Source of the DNA: Chloroflexota bacterium
Lineage (GTDB): Bacteria; Chloroflexota; Anaerolineae; Anaerolineales; UBA11858
Direction of reading: 5' to 3'
Assembly (NCBI GenBank): GCA_018648225.1
Contig: JABGRQ010000087.1
Location: forward strand, 1 to 42,588
DNA length: 42,588 bases
Made by a program: the position numbers and the translations under genes. This document shows positions 919-30,544 of this stretch, piece by piece. The notes under the pieces are model-generated. The model had not been told where the DNA came from, did not search any database, and saw nothing but the letters and a program-made list of their open reading frames with translations. Position 1 is the stretch's first letter. Each line of letters begins with the position of its first letter.

Positions 919-1557
919 ATGCACAATTTTGATTCCATCATCGAACAAGTTCACGAGTCTTTTGAAACACGCACCAAAGTGCGGGATGAAATGCTGAAAC
1001 AAGCCCGTTTTCTGACGCGGCATTGCGCTAATGCCATCCGGGCTGTACACCGCATGGAACACGAAACCGCACAACAGCATATCGCTGAGGCGCGTGCACT
1101 AGCCACATCGCTTTCACAAAATCAAGATGAGCATCCTGATTTCTTCTATGCAGGCTATACACAAGATGCCCTCAAAGAGTATGCAGAAGCTCATCTCACC
1201 TATGCCTTTGTCAACCACCAACCTATTCCAACGCCCGAAGCGATCAACCTTCAGCCAGTAGCCTACTTAAAAGGTATGGCAGAAGCCGCGGGAGAATTGC
1301 GCCGACGCAGTCTGGATGTACTCCGCCAGGGCGATTCAGATGAAGCCATTTATCTATTGGACACGATGGATGAAATCTACACCGCGCTAGTGACGATGGA
1401 TTACCCCGATGCGATCACCGGCGGGCTGCGCCGCATGACGGATATTCTGCGCAGTATCGTAGAGCGCACCCGCGGCGACCTGACCATGAGTCTGCGCCAG
1501 GAACGGCTCGAAGCGCGTTTGCGCGTCTTCGAGGAAAAACTGGCTGAACGAGAATAA
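919..1557 (+). CDS. Translin family protein
   Basis: A 212-aa, mostly helical protein that matches the translin/TRAX family. In eukaryotes this family binds single-stranded nucleic acid as an octamer and, with TRAX, forms the C3PO endoribonuclease; prokaryotic members are less well understood. Family landmarks are the YAGYTQDALKEYAEA helix (about residues 76-90), the YLKGMAEAAGELRRRSLD helix (about 115-132), the MDEIYTALVTMDYPDAI segment, and the C-terminal LRSIVERTRGDLT block near residues 177-189. The start lies 2 nt after the DUF3467 stop. The Cas4-like ORFs follow 3 nt later, giving a probable nucleic-acid-handling operon. Whether it binds RNA or DNA, or cleaves, cannot be told from sequence alone. 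Confidence 0.88.
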   Translation: MHNFDSIIEQVHESFETRTKVRDEMLKQARFLTRHCANAIRAVHRMEHETAQQHIAEARALATSLSQNQDEHPDFFYAGYTQDALKEYAEAHLTYAFVNHQPIPTPEAINLQPVAYLKGMAEAAGELRRRSLDVLRQGDSDEAIYLLDTMDEIYTALVTMDYPDAITGGLRRMTDILRSIVERTRGDLTMSLRQERLEARLRVFEEKLAERE

Positions 1558-16127: not shown

Positions 16128-19100
16128 CTATACAACATCCTTACGCTTTTGGAAGACGAGCATAATACCCATCAGCACCAGCATAATCACCGCGAGCACC
16201 ATCCAGCGAGAGAAAATAGAACCTTCAAAGACATAGCCATAATCATCGTATATGGTACCAAGCAAAGACTCGGCGCTGTTGATCGCTTTCTCGCGGCTCT
16301 TGACCCAATCGGCGCGCTCATCGCCATAATCTTGCATGGCATCGGTGTACTCATCGGCCTGTTCCTGTCGCAGATCGGCGTATTCATCACCTTGGGCATC
16401 CATCTGATCGGCATATACCTGACCCTGATCCTGACTATCGAGGCGATATTGTTCAAATTGATCCATAGCCGCATCCTGCTGTTCTTTGCCCTGAGTACGC
16501 GAATCATCCATATAGGCTTCCATATTGCGCGGATCGGCGGGCGTGGGGTATGGCGTCGGGGAGGGTAACGGTGTAGGGGTAAACATCGGAGTCAGCGAAG
16601 GCAGCGCGGTGGGGTATAGATACGCAGTAGGCTGCGGAGGCTCTGCCGGTTCGAGCATCGCCAGTTTCTCCCTGGCAACATCATCATAGAAATCAGGCGA
16701 TAAAATGCCCGGAAAATCCGCACAATCGGTAAAAATACTCTCGCCCATACAGGAGCAATTGGCCTTTACCTCATCCGGCAAATGCTGGCGATCGCTCTTT
16801 GGAAACCCGGTTAAGCAGGGGTCCTCCATAAGCTTATCGCCCATGTGCGAAGCCTGGATAAAGCCCTCCCAAACCCAGCGCGAGGACATCACCACACTGA
16901 TCGGCCTCCCACCGGGGATGACATCAATGGGCAAAAGCGCGCCCGCAAAAAGAAATTGCGGAACAAGAATCGTGATTAACAAGAGCATGGCCGAATTTTG
17001 GTTCGGGGCAATCGCCGAAATTGCCAGGCCAATCAGGTAGCCTGATAAACTCCCCAAAAACAGGGTGATAAAGAAAGCCACATAATCCAAAGTGCTTGGG
17101 ATCAGCGGTTTTACAAACGCTATTCGAAAGGCCATCAGCACGGCGGCCTGATAGATCGCCAACACCACGCCTACCCAAGCCTTCGACATCAGGTAAGGGA
17201 ATATCTTCAAATTGACAGCCCGTTCGCGCTTGTAAATATCGGCTTCTTTAACAATTTCGCGCACACTGCTCAAGGATCCGGCCAAGATAGCCACAATCGC
17301 CAGCATATACCATTGTGAGATCACCAATTCTACATCGCCGGTAACAGGATTAAACAGATCATTACCCCAGATGAAATCCATCAGGCCCAGTATTGGCGCC
17401 AATGCCAGCATCATAATCAGTGAAATCTTGTCCTGTAGGATGATCTTCAAATTGCGCGCTGAGAGGATGGTAAACTGGCGCATCCCTGAAATTCGACGCT
17501 TGTTGGAAGGTGGACGCTGAGCCTCAGCTGCAACCTGAGAAACTGCGAGCGAACGGGCACCGGTATCCCAGCCCATTGCCTGGGCATAAATCGATGAGCC
17601 AAGATAACGTTCGCGCCATTCTTCGGGCTTGCCACGCGCATCATCGTTCAGGATGCGGTAAATATCATCGAATTCCATATCTTTTTCGCGGCGCTCGCGC
17701 TCGTTACGATATTTGTCAAAATACTCGAGCGCGTCTTCGGGAGCACCATAGAAAGCCAGATTTCCACCACGGGCCAAGAAAACCGCTTTATCGCAGAGCA
17801 TCACGTTTTTGGTGGCATGGGTAATTAAAATCACCGTGCGCCCCTGATCGGCCAGACGGCGCATCAACTTCATCATGTCATATTCGGTGCCAGGGTCCAG
17901 CCCGCTGGTCGGTTCATCCAAAAAGAACAAGCGCGGCTTGGTCAGCAATTCCACACCAATCGAAACGCGTTTCAACTGCCCGCCTGAGAGCCGCGCAATG
18001 GGAATATCGCGGCGCTCGGTGAGATCGAGCACATCCAGCACTTCGCGCACCGTGGCCTGACGCTCCGCCGGGCTGGTATCCGGCGGCATGCGCAATTTCG
18101 CCACAAAATCCAGCGCCATCTCCGGGGTCAGTTCCTGATGCACAATATCTTTCTGCGGCACATAGCCAATATCGTTGCGGAAAAGATCGTAATGGGCATA
18201 CAGATCGATTCCGTTCACGGTTACGCTGCCGTGGCTGGCAGGCCAATATCCGCTGATGGCGTTCATAAAGGTAGTTTTGCCCGCGCCGCTCATCCCCACC
18301 AGCGCCACAAATTCGTTCGGCTCGATGTTGAGATTAATATCTTTGAGTAGATTCAACGAGGGGGTAACTTGCTGATTAATATTGCGCACCTCGATGCGGA
18401 TGCCCTGCTCAACTTGCCCCTGGAGTTGCTGGCCGGAAAGAACGAAAACATACGGCCCGATGCGAATCTGGTCCCAATCTTTCAGGTAGGCTTCGCGATC
18501 GATGCGCTCTTCATTAACATAAATTCCATTACTGCTGCGCAAGTCTTTGATACTAAACCGCTTCCCCATGCGCTCGATCACGGCGTGATAGCGGCTCACC
18601 AGGGGATGATTGAGCACCACCTGATTATCCACCGCCCGCCCTACCGTAACCTTTTCATGCGCAGACAAATTCATCGTGCGCACGGCAGTCGGCGCAGCAG
18701 AAAGATCAACATCCAACGCGGTATGCGAAGCGCCACTTCCAGCCAGCGCGCCAATTTGACCAGGCATCATCATCGTTCCACTGGCCGAAGGCGCAAAACC
18801 GCCCGGCTGTTCTATCTGTTCAAGATACAATGTAAACTGACCAATTGTGATAAATTGCCCCGCCTGAACAGGATACTTCCGTTGGGGTGTCAGCATAACA
18901 CCCCCCACTTGCGTGCCATTGGTGGAGCCTAAATCTGTCAACCCGAGTTCATTCCCAACAACGCTGATGCGAGCATGTTGGCGCGAGGCTTCGTCATCGT
19001 TCAGCACAAGATCACTCTCTGCGCCACGCCCCAGAATCATATCACCGGTTCTCAGAAGGTGTGTTTGCCATTCTCCATTCCCATATCGGTAACGCAGCTG

Positions 19101-19457
19101 AAATGGCGAGTTTTCTTCAGACATACCACCAGCCACATAAGTTGCCGCGCCGCCGCTCAACGCCAACCCCAACTCAAAACCCCCGATTGTTAAAACCTGG
19201 CCTGCAGAAAGCTGTACGGGCGTACGCGCCGCAATGGGCTGGCCGTTGAGCAGGGTGCCATTGCTGGAACCTAAATCTGTCACCGTCCATTGCGTGCCCA
19301 TACGCTCCAGGCGAACATGATGCCGCGAGACTTCACGATGTTCCAGTTGAAAATCGCAATCTTCGCCGCGTCCAATCAGGATCGTTTCGCTCGTAAAAAT
19401 ATTTTCTTGCCAATCCTGATCTCCCAGGCGATAACGCACAACCAAGCTTGTATCCAT
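16128..19457 (-). CDS. ABC transporter, ATPase and permease fused, with three FHA domains
   Basis: About 1109 aa. Three FHA domains bind phosphothreonine peptides: about 25-100 (GRG...SRHH...SSNGT), 138-212 (GRG...SRQH...STNGT) and 268-340 (GRA...SRYH...SSNGI). The ATPase follows, with Walker A GMSGAGKT at 388-395, signature LSGGQ near 490 and Walker B LFFLDEP near 510. An ABC2-type (ABCG-like) permease with several helices comes next. A Pro/Thr linker, a charged Asp/Gln/Tyr-rich helix with repeated DEYAD/DEYTD words, and a final membrane helix close the protein. The start at 19,457 follows GGAGG. The domain order resembles FHA-ABCG proteins thought to be controlled by Ser/Thr kinases. The substrate is unknown. 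Confidence 0.92.
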   Translation of the reverse strand: MDTSLVVRYRLGDQDWQENIFTSETILIGRGEDCDFQLEHREVSRHHVRLERMGTQWTVTDLGSSNGTLLNGQPIAARTPVQLSAGQVLTIGGFELGLALSGGAATYVAGGMSEENSPFQLRYRYGNGEWQTHLLRTGDMILGRGAESDLVLNDDEASRQHARISVVGNELGLTDLGSTNGTQVGGVMLTPQRKYPVQAGQFITIGQFTLYLEQIEQPGGFAPSASGTMMMPGQIGALAGSGASHTALDVDLSAAPTAVRTMNLSAHEKVTVGRAVDNQVVLNHPLVSRYHAVIERMGKRFSIKDLRSSNGIYVNEERIDREAYLKDWDQIRIGPYVFVLSGQQLQGQVEQGIRIEVRNINQQVTPSLNLLKDINLNIEPNEFVALVGMSGAGKTTFMNAISGYWPASHGSVTVNGIDLYAHYDLFRNDIGYVPQKDIVHQELTPEMALDFVAKLRMPPDTSPAERQATVREVLDVLDLTERRDIPIARLSGGQLKRVSIGVELLTKPRLFFLDEPTSGLDPGTEYDMMKLMRRLADQGRTVILITHATKNVMLCDKAVFLARGGNLAFYGAPEDALEYFDKYRNERERREKDMEFDDIYRILNDDARGKPEEWRERYLGSSIYAQAMGWDTGARSLAVSQVAAEAQRPPSNKRRISGMRQFTILSARNLKIILQDKISLIMMLALAPILGLMDFIWGNDLFNPVTGDVELVISQWYMLAIVAILAGSLSSVREIVKEADIYKRERAVNLKIFPYLMSKAWVGVVLAIYQAAVLMAFRIAFVKPLIPSTLDYVAFFITLFLGSLSGYLIGLAISAIAPNQNSAMLLLITILVPQFLFAGALLPIDVIPGGRPISVVMSSRWVWEGFIQASHMGDKLMEDPCLTGFPKSDRQHLPDEVKANCSCMGESIFTDCADFPGILSPDFYDDVAREKLAMLEPAEPPQPTAYLYPTALPSLTPMFTPTPLPSPTPYPTPADPRNMEAYMDDSRTQGKEQQDAAMDQFEQYRLDSQDQGQVYADQMDAQGDEYADLRQEQADEYTDAMQDYGDERADWVKSREKAINSAESLLGTIYDDYGYVFEGSIFSRWMVLAVIMLVLMGIMLVFQKRKDVV

Positions 19458-19655
19458 GAACACGCCTCCGTAAATATTCGGGAATATCAACAACTTCAAT
19501 ATAACAAACTTACCCCTCCCCCGCAATAGTTCTCCGGGCCATACTTGCTGACACTATCAAAGACGATTACAATCAAAGATAAATGACGAAAAAGTATGGC
19601 TCTTTGGGAATGTCTCGCCAGTTCCGAATGAACCAAACAAATACCAGGAGTTACT

Positions 19656-23597: not shown

Positions 23598-25916
23598 TTA
23601 CAACGCGGCCAGTAATTTTTGGTATTTTTCCTTTTCTGGAGGGTCTAGTTTGATCAGTTTGCTGATCATTTCAGCCGCTCCGGCCTTATCACCGGCATCC
23701 AATAGCAGTTCGCCAGCCGTATCATAGTGCTGAATGGACAATTCGGTTTGATGCGATATTTGGTATTGCGCCGCCAAACGGTAATGCAACATGGCATGAG
23801 CAGGTTGTTCTTCCAAAACATGATTCAGGAAAGTAATCACATCATCGGCGTGTTCGGTGTTCGACATCGTTTCAATATATCGATCAATGGACACCAGCGC
23901 CTGTTCCGATTCTTGAAGTTTGAATAATAAGCTTACCAGGCCATAATATGCTTTACCGTCATCTGGGTGCAATTCACAGATCTGTTTGTACAGTTGAACA
24001 GCCTGACGCCAATTTAAACTCTGGGTTTCAAGATCAGCAATGCGATGCCAGATACGCACCCGCCACTGATCGGGATTGGAAGATTGTGTTGCGAGATGTA
24101 AGGCTTCAGCGTAAGCTTTTCGGGTCTCATTGATTTCGGCCAAACTATAACGTACATCGGCCAGATTCAAGTACTCTATAATCGCATCATCATGTTGCCC
24201 CCAGGCAACGAGATGCTCGATCAATTGCACCCGCGAACCTACATCCATCGGCAACATTTCGACAACTCGCCGTAACATGGCAATCGTACGCTGTGATTCG
24301 CCACGCACACTATATGCACGCGCAACCACCATAAATTTTTGCGCCGCTTCGGCTAATAAATCTCTGGAAAGCAATAAATCACCCAATACAACGTGCAACG
24401 GCAAATAGGTTGGCGCTTGCTCAAGCGCAAATAAAACTTCTTCTAACGCCGCACCAATATGTCCGGCGCGGGCCATACTGCGCACTGTGCTCATAGCAAC
24501 CACCACATTACTGGAACTCGACTCCAGCAACATTTCTGCCAGGGGAATGGGCGGAGCGCTGCTATCCTGTTCACCGATTTGGCGGCGTGCGCTATTCAAA
24601 TGCTCACGCCAATTTGGACGCACCAATAGTTCAGCTACATTTTCACATAGCTTTTTCTGGCGTTGTTCATCCTTTTCGCTGGCGAAAATCTCAACAATGG
24701 GTTCATAAAGCTCGTGGAGTTCATCGGCCTGTGCCGGAGCAACAACTTCCGCATCTGCATAGCGCAAGGCTTCTAGGTAGCGCATAGCAGCCCGTTTATA
24801 TTTTTCGCGTTCATACCATATTCCACCCAAAATCAAGCGCGCACCTAACGAATAATCAATATTCGATACGGTTCTTTCCAAATAGCGCACGGCGCTCTCA
24901 TGACGCCCCGTTTTGGCTAACATACTCCCTAAACCAAAAAAGGCTGCCGGCGCATCCAACCCCGCTGAAATCGCCCCCTTCAACTCTTCAATTGCCTGTT
25001 CCGTATCACCCTGAGATTGTAAATTAACCACCTGACCAAGATGCAGCATAATTTTAGACTGATCGGCATTGTTCGAGAAAAGCGGCCCGGTACCCTTCAT
25101 GATCGCTTGCAATCCTTGCCGCTCAACTGGAGATGGGGCATCTTTTTTAGCCTGCTCAAAGAATAAACGCGCCAAATCGCTTAACGCCGTCTGGCGGGCT
25201 TCTTCGATGGGATCATCACTTTTTCGAATCGTATCAACTGGGGCGGACTCTTCGGCCCTGATCGGGGTGGGGAGTTTCCCAAAGAGGCCTGTTCCCCCCT
25301 TAGGGCGCGCCGGTTTAGGGAGCATAGTGCCCGCCCGTAACAACTCCAATGCCTGCTGTACCTCTTTACTCGCTGGATCCAGCTTCAAGGCACGATTTGC
25401 CGCGTCAAAGGCTTTTTCTCGCTGACCGGCATGTTGCAACAAACTGGCAACATGCAAAAACTCGCGGATAGCTTGCGGTTTTCGCCCCAATCGCTCATAA
25501 ACCAACGCCAGGCGGGAATGAGCCTGCAAATTCTGGGGGAATAATGCCACCGCGCGCGACCAGTTCTCGATGGCTTTTTCAGGGTTTTTCTCTTTCAGGT
25601 ATAACTCGGCCCCTCTCTCTGATAGCCGAGAAGCTTTTTCCAATTGCCCCAGACTTTCATACAGTGTCGCTGCTTTCTCCAAGGGCACTGGATCATCCTG
25701 CGCAATTTCGGCTGCCCGCAAGTAATATTTTAGCGCTTTGTCGTATTCCGACATATTCAGAAAGGCCAAAGCTAGATTCATTAGCGCTTTTGGATCTTCG
25801 TGTCTAGAATCCAACGCCTGGCTATAGAATGAAGCTGCGCGCTCCCATTCCTGATCCCAGGCTGCTGAGTGCCCTAAATTCATAGCTTGTTTATAGCGTT
25901 GATCGTCTGCGCTCAT
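23598..25916 (-). CDS. Tetratricopeptide-repeat protein
   Basis: About 772 aa made almost entirely of TPR-type helix pairs, e.g. DPKALMNLALAFLNMSEYDKA, LALVYERLGRKPQAIREF, PAAFFGLGSMLAKTGRHESA and KAYYGLVSLLFKLQESEQA. A Pro/Lys-rich unstructured stretch (about 200-240) separates two repeat blocks. No signal peptide is seen, so it is probably a cytoplasmic scaffold. ATG at 25,916 is preferred because GAGAA lies just upstream; GTG at 25,940 is the alternative. It follows polA by 44 nt on the same strand and ends at the strong terminator, so it is the last gene of the rho-polA run. Confidence 0.88.
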   Translation of the reverse strand: MSADDQRYKQAMNLGHSAAWDQEWERAASFYSQALDSRHEDPKALMNLALAFLNMSEYDKALKYYLRAAEIAQDDPVPLEKAATLYESLGQLEKASRLSERGAELYLKEKNPEKAIENWSRAVALFPQNLQAHSRLALVYERLGRKPQAIREFLHVASLLQHAGQREKAFDAANRALKLDPASKEVQQALELLRAGTMLPKPARPKGGTGLFGKLPTPIRAEESAPVDTIRKSDDPIEEARQTALSDLARLFFEQAKKDAPSPVERQGLQAIMKGTGPLFSNNADQSKIMLHLGQVVNLQSQGDTEQAIEELKGAISAGLDAPAAFFGLGSMLAKTGRHESAVRYLERTVSNIDYSLGARLILGGIWYEREKYKRAAMRYLEALRYADAEVVAPAQADELHELYEPIVEIFASEKDEQRQKKLCENVAELLVRPNWREHLNSARRQIGEQDSSAPPIPLAEMLLESSSSNVVVAMSTVRSMARAGHIGAALEEVLFALEQAPTYLPLHVVLGDLLLSRDLLAEAAQKFMVVARAYSVRGESQRTIAMLRRVVEMLPMDVGSRVQLIEHLVAWGQHDDAIIEYLNLADVRYSLAEINETRKAYAEALHLATQSSNPDQWRVRIWHRIADLETQSLNWRQAVQLYKQICELHPDDGKAYYGLVSLLFKLQESEQALVSIDRYIETMSNTEHADDVITFLNHVLEEQPAHAMLHYRLAAQYQISHQTELSIQHYDTAGELLLDAGDKAGAAEMISKLIKLDPPEKEKYQKLLAAL

Positions 25917-25960
25917 AAAATTCTCATTATTTGACTGCACAGGCTTGCGCCCGCAATAGG

Positions 25961-28771
25961 CTAAGGAGTTATCGAATTCGTTTCAAGAGGCTGCAACGTG
26001 CCCCAGTTCTTACCCACGCGTGCATCTGTTTTTAATGGAATATCGAGGGAGTAAGCGGCTTCCATGGCTTCACGCGCCATCGCGAAAACAACTTCAACAT
26101 CATCTTGCGAACATTCTAACACTAATTCATCATGAACCTGAAGCAACATGCGTGCTGAAAGATTCGCTCGTTTTAAAACGGCTGCCATCCGCAGCATGGC
26201 AATTTTCATAATATCGGCAGCAGTTCCCTGAATGGGAGCGTTAACCGCTTCACGTTCCTCGCGGTTGCGCGTCTGCTGGTTACGCACATTTTGTAAGCCC
26301 GGAAAATAACGCCGCCGCCCCAGCAGGGTTTCAACATAACCAGTTTGCGCAGCGGATGTGCGAATCGTATCCAGATAGCGCTTTACTCCCGGGAATTTCT
26401 CAAAATAGGCGCTGACAAAATTCTCAGCTTCCGCCAGAGTCAAATCGGTGGTGCGCGTCAACCCGAAGGGACTCATCCCGTAGATCAGGCCAAAGTTTAT
26501 CGCCTTGGCGTGGCGCCGCTGCGTAGAGGAAACTTCTGATAGGGGAACAGCATAGATCGCCGCGGCTGTAATCGCATGAATATCTTGCCCATTGCGGAAC
26601 GCAGCCAGCATGGCTTCATCCTGGGCCATGTGCGCCGCAATACGCAATTCCACTTGCGAATAATCAATCGCCAGCAGCACATTCCCCGGCGCTGCAATAA
26701 AAGCCTCACGCACGCGGCGGCCCAACTCGGTACGAATGGGGATATTTTGCAAATTGGGGTCGGATGAGGCAATGCGTCCGGTGCGCGCGCCAGTCTGATT
26801 ATAGGATGTATGCACGCGCCCGGTATGTGGATTCACCTGCTGAGGCAGGGCCTCCAAATAGGTTGAACGCAGCTTTGACAACTCGCGATATTCCAGGATC
26901 AAAGCCATCACCGGATGCCGATCGCGCAGGTATTCAAGCACCCCAGCCGCGGTGGAATAGTATCCGCTGGAAATGCGCCGCGAGCCTTCGGGAGGCGCAA
27001 TACCCAATCGATCAAACAAAGCCTCCGAAAGTTGCTTGGGAGAATTCAAGTTAAACGGTTGTCCCACCATCTGATAAATCTGTTCTGAAATTGTACTCAG
27101 ACGATTGTGCAACTCGCCAGACATAGCTTCTAAAAACGGAACATCCAACCCGATACCGGCCATCTCCATGCCTGCCAACACTTCTACCAGCGGCATTTCG
27201 ATCTCTGCAAATAAGTTTTCGGCCTGCGCGGCTTGGAGTCCTTCCTGAAGTTGAGGCATCAAGCGCAACACAACCACTGCATCATCGGCGGCATATTGAG
27301 CAGCATCTACAATCGACACTTCAGCCATGCTGCGTTGATTCTTTCCCTTGCCAATCAGGGTTTCAATCTCGGTCATCTGGTGGCCAAGGCGCACCCAGGC
27401 CAGCCGTTTCAAACCCAAATTACGCGAATCCGGATTGATCAGCCATTCAGCGATCATGCTATCGAAACTGAGCGGAGTCACGCGCAAACCATAGCGGGCC
27501 AACATCACATAATCGTATTTGATATTGTGTCCAATTTTCGCAATCTGTGGATTCGTCAACGCAGGCGTTAGCGCCGCGATCACATCGCCCAGCGCGAGCT
27601 GCCGCCCCTGAAGATGCCCCACCGGAATATAGTAGCCGTGGTTTTCATCCACCGCCAAAGAGATGCCCACCAAATCAGCCTGCATCTGGTCGGTTGAAGT
27701 CGTCTCCGTATCAAAGGCAATCACGGCAGCTTTTTCAAGCGCAGCCGCCAGCGATTGCAATAATTCGGGCGTATCTACTATTGTCATTTGCGAGAGCGCA
27801 GGACCGCTCTGCTGTGCGGTTGTCGGATGAACAGCATCGCCAAACAACGTCATTTGCTGTCCGGCGACGGGTACCGCATCGCCATAGCGCGCTTGCAGCG
27901 CATCGACACGATTGAGCAATGAACGGAACTCCAACTCGCGAAAAGCAGCGTGTACGGCTTGGGGGTTAAAATTCGCCGGGCGTGCTTTCTCCAGATTCAG
28001 GGCAATATCCAGATCCAGCACAATCGCGGCCAGTTTCTGGCTCAGATAGGCGTTTTCACGATCCAGCTCGAGCTTATTCCGCACCCCGGCTTTAAGTTCA
28101 TCGAGATGCGCGTAAATAGTATCGAGCGTATCATACTCGCTTAGGAGAACCGCGGCCGTTTTTGCGCCAATCCCTTTAACGCCAGGAATATTATCGGATG
28201 AATCGCCCATCAGGGCTTTCAAATCCATCACCTGGTCGGGGCGCACACCTAACTTTTCTACCACATCCGCGGCGAGATAATCTTTCGCGTCCGATAAAGA
28301 ACGCCCAGGCAAGTTGACAATTATGCGTTCATCCACCAATTGCAATAAATCACGATCGCCGGTAAAAATCTTCACCCCCAAACCTTGCGCTACGGCAATT
28401 TGAGCAACGCTGCCCAACACATCATCGGCTTCGTAGCCGGGCATTTCCAGGCGCGGAATATTGAAAGCGTCGACCAATTGGCGGATGCGCTCGATCTGAA
28501 TACGCAAATCATCGGGCATTTTCTCGCGCGTGGCTTTATAGTCGGGGTACAACTCATCACGGAAAGTTTTACCGGTGTCAAAAACCACCGCCAGATAATC
28601 GGGGTCTTCCTGCTCCAGAATGCGCAGCAGCACACTGGTAAATCCGTAAACGCCAGCCGTCGGCTCGCCAGAACTGGTGATCCAGCGGCTGTCGGCCTGT
28701 CCGCGCGTCAATGCAAAGTAGGCCCGATACGCCAGGGCATGACCATCAATGAGATATAAAATAGGGGGCAT
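25961..28771 (-). CDS. polA: DNA polymerase I
   Basis: A 936-aa repair and Okazaki-fragment polymerase. The 5'-nuclease domain covers about 1-295 (YLIDGHALAYRAY, GDRDLLQLV, GDSSDNIPGVKGIG). The 3'-5' exonuclease domain keeps its acids (D354 and E356 in FDTET, IGHNIKYDY, and YAADDA), so it should proofread. The polymerase domain has DYSQVELRIAAH, AKAINFGLIYGMSP and the QVHDELVLE palm motif. Between the first two domains, QMTLF at residues 306-310 matches the sliding-clamp-binding consensus. It starts 17 nt after the Y1-fold fusion gene; TATACA and TACAAT lie just before the ATG and could be an internal promoter. Confidence 0.97.
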   Translation of the reverse strand: MPPILYLIDGHALAYRAYFALTRGQADSRWITSSGEPTAGVYGFTSVLLRILEQEDPDYLAVVFDTGKTFRDELYPDYKATREKMPDDLRIQIERIRQLVDAFNIPRLEMPGYEADDVLGSVAQIAVAQGLGVKIFTGDRDLLQLVDERIIVNLPGRSLSDAKDYLAADVVEKLGVRPDQVMDLKALMGDSSDNIPGVKGIGAKTAAVLLSEYDTLDTIYAHLDELKAGVRNKLELDRENAYLSQKLAAIVLDLDIALNLEKARPANFNPQAVHAAFRELEFRSLLNRVDALQARYGDAVPVAGQQMTLFGDAVHPTTAQQSGPALSQMTIVDTPELLQSLAAALEKAAVIAFDTETTSTDQMQADLVGISLAVDENHGYYIPVGHLQGRQLALGDVIAALTPALTNPQIAKIGHNIKYDYVMLARYGLRVTPLSFDSMIAEWLINPDSRNLGLKRLAWVRLGHQMTEIETLIGKGKNQRSMAEVSIVDAAQYAADDAVVVLRLMPQLQEGLQAAQAENLFAEIEMPLVEVLAGMEMAGIGLDVPFLEAMSGELHNRLSTISEQIYQMVGQPFNLNSPKQLSEALFDRLGIAPPEGSRRISSGYYSTAAGVLEYLRDRHPVMALILEYRELSKLRSTYLEALPQQVNPHTGRVHTSYNQTGARTGRIASSDPNLQNIPIRTELGRRVREAFIAAPGNVLLAIDYSQVELRIAAHMAQDEAMLAAFRNGQDIHAITAAAIYAVPLSEVSSTQRRHAKAINFGLIYGMSPFGLTRTTDLTLAEAENFVSAYFEKFPGVKRYLDTIRTSAAQTGYVETLLGRRRYFPGLQNVRNQQTRNREEREAVNAPIQGTAADIMKIAMLRMAAVLKRANLSARMLLQVHDELVLECSQDDVEVVFAMAREAMEAAYSLDIPLKTDARVGKNWGTLQPLETNSITP

Positions 28772-28788: not shown

Positions 28789-30480
28789 CTATTGCGCGCC
28801 CTGACGAGTGCGCACATTATTAATAAACTCTTGTACCATCTGGCGGGAAAATGGATCACGGCCATTGACGATCAAATAATCGGCCACCCAAAATTCGCCG
28901 GAGGGATTATCGCGTTCCAGACGCGGAATTTCTTTAAAGATACGTTGCGATATTTCCACGCGCAAATTATGCACCATCATCCCTGGGGATGCGTCCGGGG
29001 GCACAACCGCAATCCAATGCAAATAATCAGGTCGCACCGATAAATGCTCCAGCCGCCAGCCAAAGGCCATGCTCAATTGCCGCGTCCACTGGTTCAGATA
29101 CTCGGCCAAATCGCCCACCAAATGATGCTGCGGCAAACGCGGCACCAAAACACAGGCATAGGTGAGGTTATGCAGCGTAGCCGTTGGCGATTCAGGCGTA
29201 AATAGTATTCGGGCTGCTTCTCTTTCCATGACATCCACGGCAACATGGGCATCAGCTTCTGTTTTTGTGGGACGTGTATCTGCCAGCGAGAGCGGCGGAG
29301 GCGTCTCCAACGCTGCTTCCAGGCCCGAGGCTGGCGCGCCAACCCCAGGAGGCGGCACAACGGATTCCCCTGAAGGCGGGGGGGGCGAACTCGGAAGATT
29401 GGCTTCGTTACCAGGCGTCCACTCATACGCCGCGCCGCTCGGGGGCGTAGCGCTCAGGCTTTGTGCCGCAGCACCCACAGGGGTTGCGCCATCGGCAATG
29501 GGAATATCCATGCTCTTGAGCAGGTCTTCAAAGAAATTATGCCGCCCTTCGGCAATGTGACTCTCATCGGGCCGCCAATCAGAGGGGATACGCGGGAAAT
29601 CTTCGGCAGAATCAACCCCCGTGGTAAGAATATCTTCGAGGGCTGTATCCACTTCGGGCGCGTTCGCTTCATCCTGTGGGGGTTTAGATAATTGCCGGGC
29701 AAGGCTCCCCGCCTGAGTACGCATTTCCGTAAATGGAGTTTCAGCCTCGAAAACCAACGCCAGCACATAATCATCCCCCAGGCTGGTGGCATAGATCATA
29801 TATTCGCTATTAGTGGCTTCGAGGCGCGTAAAACGAGCCAGATCGCTGCCGCCATCGTGCGCCCAATAATGACCCACAAGGCGAGCCAGTTCTTCGGCTG
29901 CCGGTTGTGGCAACTGACCGGCATAGGCCCATAACAGGTCGCCGCGTGTGATAAGCGCCGCCTGCGCCGCCGATTGCAACGACAAGCGGGTTAGGTGCTG
30001 GGCCACCCGGTTGACATCTTGCAGCCATTCGGGGGCCGGGGCAGGATTTTTCTCACGATGGATGATAGCCGAAGTAAAAATGGCTTGGGGTTTGCCCTGA
30101 TGAGGTATATCGGTTGAGGCGCTATTCTCAACCAGGCTGGCCAGTGTGTCGAGTAAATTCGGCAAGTAAAACGGCATCGCCAGCCAGGCATCAACAACCG
30201 ATTCGTGGAGATCGTTCTGCGGGTCATTCGGCCCGGCGGGCATTCCCAGAATACGGATTTGGTTGCTTTCACCGCGCATATTGGCAATAAAGTCTACTGG
30301 ATCGGGCATGGCGCCAAAATCGACAATCGCCAGATGGTATTCTTCAGCGCGCGTATGCTCCATCCCTGCTTCGGCGCTCTCCACTAAATCAGCGCGATAG
30401 AGGCCTGTTTCACCCAGCGCCCGTTGCATTAACTCGCCGAGACTACGAATGGAGGTGACGATAAGAATTCGAACAGCCAT
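28789..30480 (-). CDS. Pseudo-receiver / roadblock-like / dead Y1-transposase-fold fusion protein
   Basis: A 563-aa protein with three modules. Residues 1-118 resemble a response-regulator receiver (RILIVTS..., D54, WLAMPF) but lack the acidic pair and the conserved lysine. Residues about 150-266 look roadblock/LC7-like. After a Pro/Gly-rich linker (about 340-400), residues 420-563 match the IS200/TnpA Y1 fold: YACVLVPR, LSMAFGWRLEHLSVRPDYLHW, the VVPPDASPGMMVHNLR region and FWVADYLIVNG. The usual HUH reads Y486-L-H488 and the usual helix tyrosine is F552. It therefore cannot be a normal transposase and looks domesticated. No transposon ends flank it. It lies just upstream of polA. Confidence 0.7.
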   Translation of the reverse strand: MAVRILIVTSIRSLGELMQRALGETGLYRADLVESAEAGMEHTRAEEYHLAIVDFGAMPDPVDFIANMRGESNQIRILGMPAGPNDPQNDLHESVVDAWLAMPFYLPNLLDTLASLVENSASTDIPHQGKPQAIFTSAIIHREKNPAPAPEWLQDVNRVAQHLTRLSLQSAAQAALITRGDLLWAYAGQLPQPAAEELARLVGHYWAHDGGSDLARFTRLEATNSEYMIYATSLGDDYVLALVFEAETPFTEMRTQAGSLARQLSKPPQDEANAPEVDTALEDILTTGVDSAEDFPRIPSDWRPDESHIAEGRHNFFEDLLKSMDIPIADGATPVGAAAQSLSATPPSGAAYEWTPGNEANLPSSPPPPSGESVVPPPGVGAPASGLEAALETPPPLSLADTRPTKTEADAHVAVDVMEREAARILFTPESPTATLHNLTYACVLVPRLPQHHLVGDLAEYLNQWTRQLSMAFGWRLEHLSVRPDYLHWIAVVPPDASPGMMVHNLRVEISQRIFKEIPRLERDNPSGEFWVADYLIVNGRDPFSRQMVQEFINNVRTRQGAQ

Positions 30481-30544
30481 AGTTAGAGTGTATCATAAAG
30501 GATATGCCGGGAATAGAGGGAGGGATTCCCTTCTCGGATGGCAT

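Follow-up and report, generated by a model that had tools for sequence, protein, structure and literature searches.

To our knowledge, the documented cases of transposase domestication in bacteria usually concern proteins that keep their chemistry. Some viral replication initiators carry HUH-type origin-binding domains that bind DNA without nicking it; these domains belong to another subfamily and are fused to helicases. Y1 transposases are reported to work on single-stranded DNA of the lagging strand, and the TnpA of IS608 is thought to contact DnaN (PMC6006769). The TnpA-REP proteins, or RAYTs, are host-retained Y1 domains with added domains rather than parts of an insertion sequence; they keep the HUH motif and the tyrosine, are patchily distributed, and fall into subclasses of which five sit among REP sequences (Quentin et al. 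2018, PMC6006769). In the same study, members without the HUH or Y motifs were excluded as likely non-functional (PMC6006769).

Here we describe a gene on the minus strand (28789–30480) of a 42,588-nucleotide stretch of Chloroflexota DNA (the window) that encodes a Y1 domain without an active site, which travels with polA and is kept as strictly as Pol I across several Anaerolineae orders. The domain shares with the TnpA of IS200/IS605 elements (IS608, ISDra2; PF01797) its fold, length, strand order, FW..Y strand and C-terminal helix. It differs from active TnpA in lacking HUH, in the replacement of the metal-binding Gln and in having either Y or F at the nucleophile position, and the gene encodes a three-domain protein, present in one copy, without ends or subterminal hairpins. 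Like the RAYTs, it combines a host-retained Y1 domain with added domains outside an insertion sequence; unlike them, it lacks both HUH and REPs and is vertically inherited. A RAYT with REPs was ruled out by the score of the protein against the NCBIfam RAYT profile (15.5 bits against a cutoff of 80) and by the absence of a hairpin-repeat family from the window. A second part of the protein, residues 146–272, shares the fold of MglB and LAMTOR but has no score for Pfam Robl_LC7 and is fused to a receiver and the pseudo-Y1 domain. The fusion is undescribed in the open-access literature that we searched.

Domain architecture

The open reading frame runs from an ATG at 30480 to a stop at 28789 and encodes 563 residues, in agreement with the preliminary description of this DNA, arranged as receiver, roadblock, linker and pseudo-Y1 domain. 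An AlphaFold2 model built on a 26-sequence family alignment shows three domains with confidence, joined by disordered linkers; for the whole chain the pTM was low (0.31), with 165 residues, mostly in the linker, at pLDDT below 50.

The pseudo-Y1 domain (residues 437–561; 28798–29172, minus strand) was identified by profile, PDB search and structure. The preliminary description had read the C-terminus as a Y1 transposase fold and proposed structure prediction and a Y1_Tnp profile search as checks, and both bore this reading out. Pfam Y1_Tnp (PF01797) matched residues 436–555 over model positions 2–120 of 121, with 46 bits (E 7e-12) against a curated cutoff of 23, and the NCBIfam IS200 transposase profile gave 47.7 bits, slightly below its equivalog cutoff of 55. 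Solved IS200-type transposases in the PDB were matched on sequence alone (E 1e-9). The pLDDT is about 92 across the domain, and Foldseek aligned it to 2fyx with a TM score of 0.80 (rmsd 2.2 Å) and to the ISDra2 and IS608 transposases with E values of 1e-6 to 1e-9. One of the PDB matches was a DNA complex of ISDra2 TnpA carrying the Y132F mutation, so a Y1 fold with Phe in place of the nucleophile can be DNA-bound.

At the N-terminus, a degenerate receiver domain (residues 1–120; 30121–30480, minus strand) was recognized from its profile, its structure and the alignment of relatives: the Pfam match (residues 5–80) fell below the cutoff, and Foldseek of the domain recovered the receiver fold with a TM score of about 0.83. 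A phosphorylatable receiver combines an acidic pair, a phospho-acceptor Asp and a Lys, and the window protein lacks this full set. The preliminary description was correct that the acidic pair and the Lys are missing here, but went too far in stating that all enzymatic residues are lost. The acidic pair is lost across the family; D54 is kept in the window protein and in 98 of 100 relatives, and position 102 is Lys in 82 of the 100 and Met in the window lineage.

Between the two lies a roadblock/MglB-like domain (residues 146–272; 29665–30045, minus strand), also anticipated in the preliminary description. Pfam Robl_LC7 gave no match to the window protein at E values up to 1, while other proteins of the genome do match. 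A separate model of these residues (mean pLDDT 79) has the alpha-beta-beta-alpha-beta-beta-beta-alpha order of the roadblock/LC7 fold, as in MglB and LAMTOR, which were its best Foldseek matches (E about 1e-6, TM about 0.65–0.7). Elsewhere, the genome encodes two MglB-type roadblock proteins that stand alone and a single Ras-like GTPase (L182, L183 and L274, on C124, C154 and C119 of G000), which are possible partners. The roadblock and pseudo-Y1 domains are joined by a low-complexity linker (residues 273–436; 29173–29664, minus strand) that is predicted to be disordered, with pLDDT mostly below 50 and one helix at residues 307–323.

Loss of the catalytic site

We compared catalytic positions in a set of 104 fused Y1 domains, all distinct and almost all from the home order. 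The former HUH metal site reads Y486-L487-H488 in the window protein (29017–29025, minus strand), with the residues and codons that had been noted beforehand, and its usual signature in the family is YUQ: position 486 is Y in 91 of the 104 domains, and position 488 carries Q in 84 of them but H in 12. At 556, a further metal-ligand position, 79 domains have T. At the former nucleophile position (F552; 28825–28827, minus strand, again as noted), 56 domains have Tyr and 47 have Phe. Loss of the HUH site is family-wide, whereas loss of the tyrosine is not; in the alignment, position 552 varies among relatives, with Tyr and Phe as the two common states, and F552 is lineage-specific.

HUH and Tyr occurred together in none of the 104 domains, nor in any fused member from other orders, which indicates that the metal site was probably lost early in the fused family. 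The forms nearest to such a transitional state are L016 (844–2337, minus strand), whose HLH metal site, the only one among the 104, is accompanied by Phe at 552, and the most TnpA-like member from the other orders (G376), which has DYVQ with Tyr, still without HUH. Standalone genuine TnpAs of the phylum mostly have DHVHLF and Tyr. Homologues with an intact HUH and tyrosine flanked by transposon ends, which would have spoken against domestication, are likewise absent among the fused relatives, and the window gene has no inverted repeats at its ends. These results support the earlier view of a domesticated, catalytically dead Y1 domain.

Distribution and inheritance

The gene was present in 39 of 61 genomes (the window's own and the 60 nearest), at a single locus in nearly all; lower-scoring second matches in these genomes were genuine TnpAs, Y1-only paralogues or split gene segments. 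The window genome has one fused copy. Its only other Y1 protein (G000:C170:1734-2069, L181) is RAYT-like, 209 residues long and single-copy, with an intact NHYHF site. Scanning the species contigs of GTDB yielded 168 relatives; among the 80 matches listed, the titles read Anaerolineae, Anaerolineales, Chloroflexi or similar, with one Candidatus Aquidulcis. A phylum-wide search with the full-length alignment was swamped by ordinary receivers, so the roadblock domain alone was used as the query; it matched in 125 of 297 genomes class-wide and in 32 of 300 phylum-wide, three of the latter outside the class, although some weak matches in these searches may be other roadblock proteins.

Beyond the home order, the receiver-roadblock-pseudoY1 architecture was found in f24, f112, f121, f122 and f126, and in divergent form in f20. 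These proteins have long linkers and reach 1256 residues; in class relatives of 1000–1256 residues (L256, L257, L217 and L272), a linker several hundred residues long separates the receiver from the roadblock. A roadblock-Y1 architecture occurs in f127, while receiver-roadblock proteins without Y1 form a group of their own (f22, f120, f123, f124, f32). The roadblock tree, which is weakly resolved, requires two changes of the Y1 label, as a single gain and a single loss could produce. Large open frames in G359, G252 and G404 had weak Y1 scores and no receiver or roadblock match. Standalone YUQ-type Y1 proteins of 182–194 residues (L090:4826-5371, L091:4618-5199 and L092:3327-3884) are nested inside the fused family; to judge by their sequences, the dead Y1 domain is here copied out on its own.

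Between the window gene and its nearest relative, dN/dS was 0.16 for the receiver, 0.33 for the linker, 0.07 for the Y1 domain and only 0.015 for the roadblock, the most constrained domain. Over 60 loci, the median divergence of the Y1 domain (0.324) was close to that of PolA (0.34), and Mantel tests against PolA distances gave r values of 0.80 for Y1, 0.87 for the roadblock and 0.85 for the receiver, none of which was reached in 1000 permutations. In the Y1 tree, a split with 98/84 support set off the genuine HUH-bearing TnpAs; the fused domains clustered together, save one very long branch. The Y1 domain is under strong purifying selection and is inherited vertically with polA. The earlier wording "probably dead" therefore holds for transposition chemistry but not for the domain itself. 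The lack of HUH thus does not by itself make a Y1 protein non-functional, although previous work (PMC6006769) excluded such proteins.

Linkage to polA

The gene for DNA polymerase I, polA, lies 17 nt downstream on the same strand (25961–28771), followed by a gene for a TPR-repeat protein (23598–25940, minus strand); both were assigned by profile and neighbourhood comparison. The preliminary description had taken the location beside polA to fit a DNA role, and the adjacency proved to be more than mere position. In 71 of the 77 loci with room for it, polA is directly downstream on the same strand, with 4-nt gaps or overlaps common. Among 20 longer neighbourhoods it is immediate in 18 and 2.9 kb away in one, the last being cut by a contig end, and the TPR gene is usually third in the cluster. 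The adjacency spans many families and several orders, among them orders other than the home order. In some orders, relatives were not found beside polA, and some polA-adjacent relatives lack the Y1 domain (f124 and f22). Whole genera without the gene keep the polA-TPR order, G009 also keeping M23 upstream, which indicates that the gene is dispensable and that polA is independent of it.

An extended −10 promoter element, TGATACACT (30487–30495, minus strand), is located 6 nt before the ATG, a leaderless-type start that is conserved over the order. A generic form of this TGATAMACT element was found near the ATG in 101 of 116 loci, some of which are duplicates of one genome, compared with 4 of 116 in a control stretch. 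Because the conserved promoter is upstream of the gene, it is probably also the promoter of the polA unit, and the gene and polA are probably co-transcribed.

Possible roles of the fused protein

The dead site, together with PolA-like preservation, suggests that the cell recruited the Y1 domain for a job other than cutting. We tentatively favor a reading in which a domesticated, non-catalytic Y1 domain on a receiver-roadblock scaffold is expressed with Pol I and holds DNA uncut for it. By analogy with MglB-type domains, the roadblock domain would homodimerize, and the pseudo-Y1 domain would likewise dimerize, as in TnpA, giving a bivalent scaffold that might be modulated by the degenerate receiver and possibly by a small Ras-like GTPase. 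The pseudo-Y1 pair would hold, but not cut, DNA that is single-stranded or structured, and the protein might mark or protect intermediates at gaps, flaps or the lagging strand for Pol I, or tune the use of Pol I. This explanation is weakest in its DNA and Pol I steps. Y1 conservation, the linkage to polA, newly conserved arginines and the basic median pI of the family speak for these steps; the near-neutral Y1 domain of the window copy, the lost basic pair of TnpA, the genera that do without the gene, and the relatives that lie away from polA or lack Y1 speak against the explanation. Binding of structured or single-stranded DNA in a Pol I-linked role is plausible, and the literature on Y1 transposases, the lagging strand and DnaN makes a role in replication or repair reasonable, though it offers no evidence for the window protein. 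At this locus it can be tested whether a transposase fold has become a structural or binding component of the machinery that maintains the chromosome.

The main rival, which we regard as rather unlikely, places the pseudo-Y1 domain off DNA as a dimerization or partner-binding module, the roadblock being a scaffold for a small GTPase or signaling and polA a mere operon passenger. It gains from the exceptional constraint on the roadblock and its match to the MglB and LAMTOR scaffolds, from the Ras-like GTPase encoded in the genome, and from the persistence of receiver-roadblock relatives without Y1, including those beside polA. Charge points both ways: the Y1 domain of the window copy is near neutral (pI 7.0), and a basic pair that follows the first strand in all or nearly all of nine TnpAs compared (positions 450–451) has been lost in the fused family, yet the domain is basic in most members (median pI 9.0). 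The family also has newly conserved arginines of its own (R476, R483, R504, R520, R557 and R559). Conservation of Y1 to the same degree as PolA and the polA linkage across several orders are harder to reconcile with a passenger.

We give a lower probability to a signal-responsive reader of DNA structure, in which the receiver and roadblock would sense a signal through a small GTPase or another partner, and the dead Y1 pair would read lagging-strand, gap or hairpin DNA and recruit, hold or restrain Pol I. The preliminary description had connected a hairpin sensor with several hairpin repeats in the window; this part was not sustained, since the window has a single overlapping palindrome, which lies within the gene, and lacks a family of such repeats.

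It is improbable that the protein is a response-regulator-like transcription factor with the pseudo-Y1 domain as its output, autoregulating the polA operon. An N-terminal receiver with a C-terminal DNA-handling domain would suit this role, as would a conserved promoter element that in several loci forms a short inverted repeat (AAGTG-ATA-CACTT). The element is, however, an ordinary extended −10: the window genome has 15 TGATAMACT-type starts, against 3 control sites, before unrelated genes, which supports a transcription start at the gene and not autoregulation. The promoter palindrome as a gene-specific operator was ruled out by the same commonness across the genome. The rest of the upstream sequence is not conserved even among members of the genus, and Y1 domains act on single strands rather than on duplex operators. 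Other genes of the genome with such a start include a fructose-bisphosphatase-like gene and a receiver-HD-GYP gene.

Residual nuclease or ligase activity from an altered active site (YUQ with Tyr or Phe) is highly improbable: Tyr persists at the nucleophile position in just over half of the family and polar residues are conserved at the former active site (Y486, Q488, R557 and Q560), but relatives swap Tyr for Phe and most have replaced both the His and the metal-binding Gln. A recent, decaying IS insertion, for which only the Y1 similarity speaks, can be dismissed, being ruled out by the single fused copy per genome, the vertical, polA-linked distribution, purifying selection and the absence of ends.

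Other genes in the window

Two further genes in the window deserve mention. One (16128–19526, minus strand) encodes an ABC transporter of 1132 residues with three FHA domains, and the other (919–1557, plus strand) encodes a Translin-family protein in a bacterium, with a Pfam score of 32.5 bits against a cutoff of 25.9.
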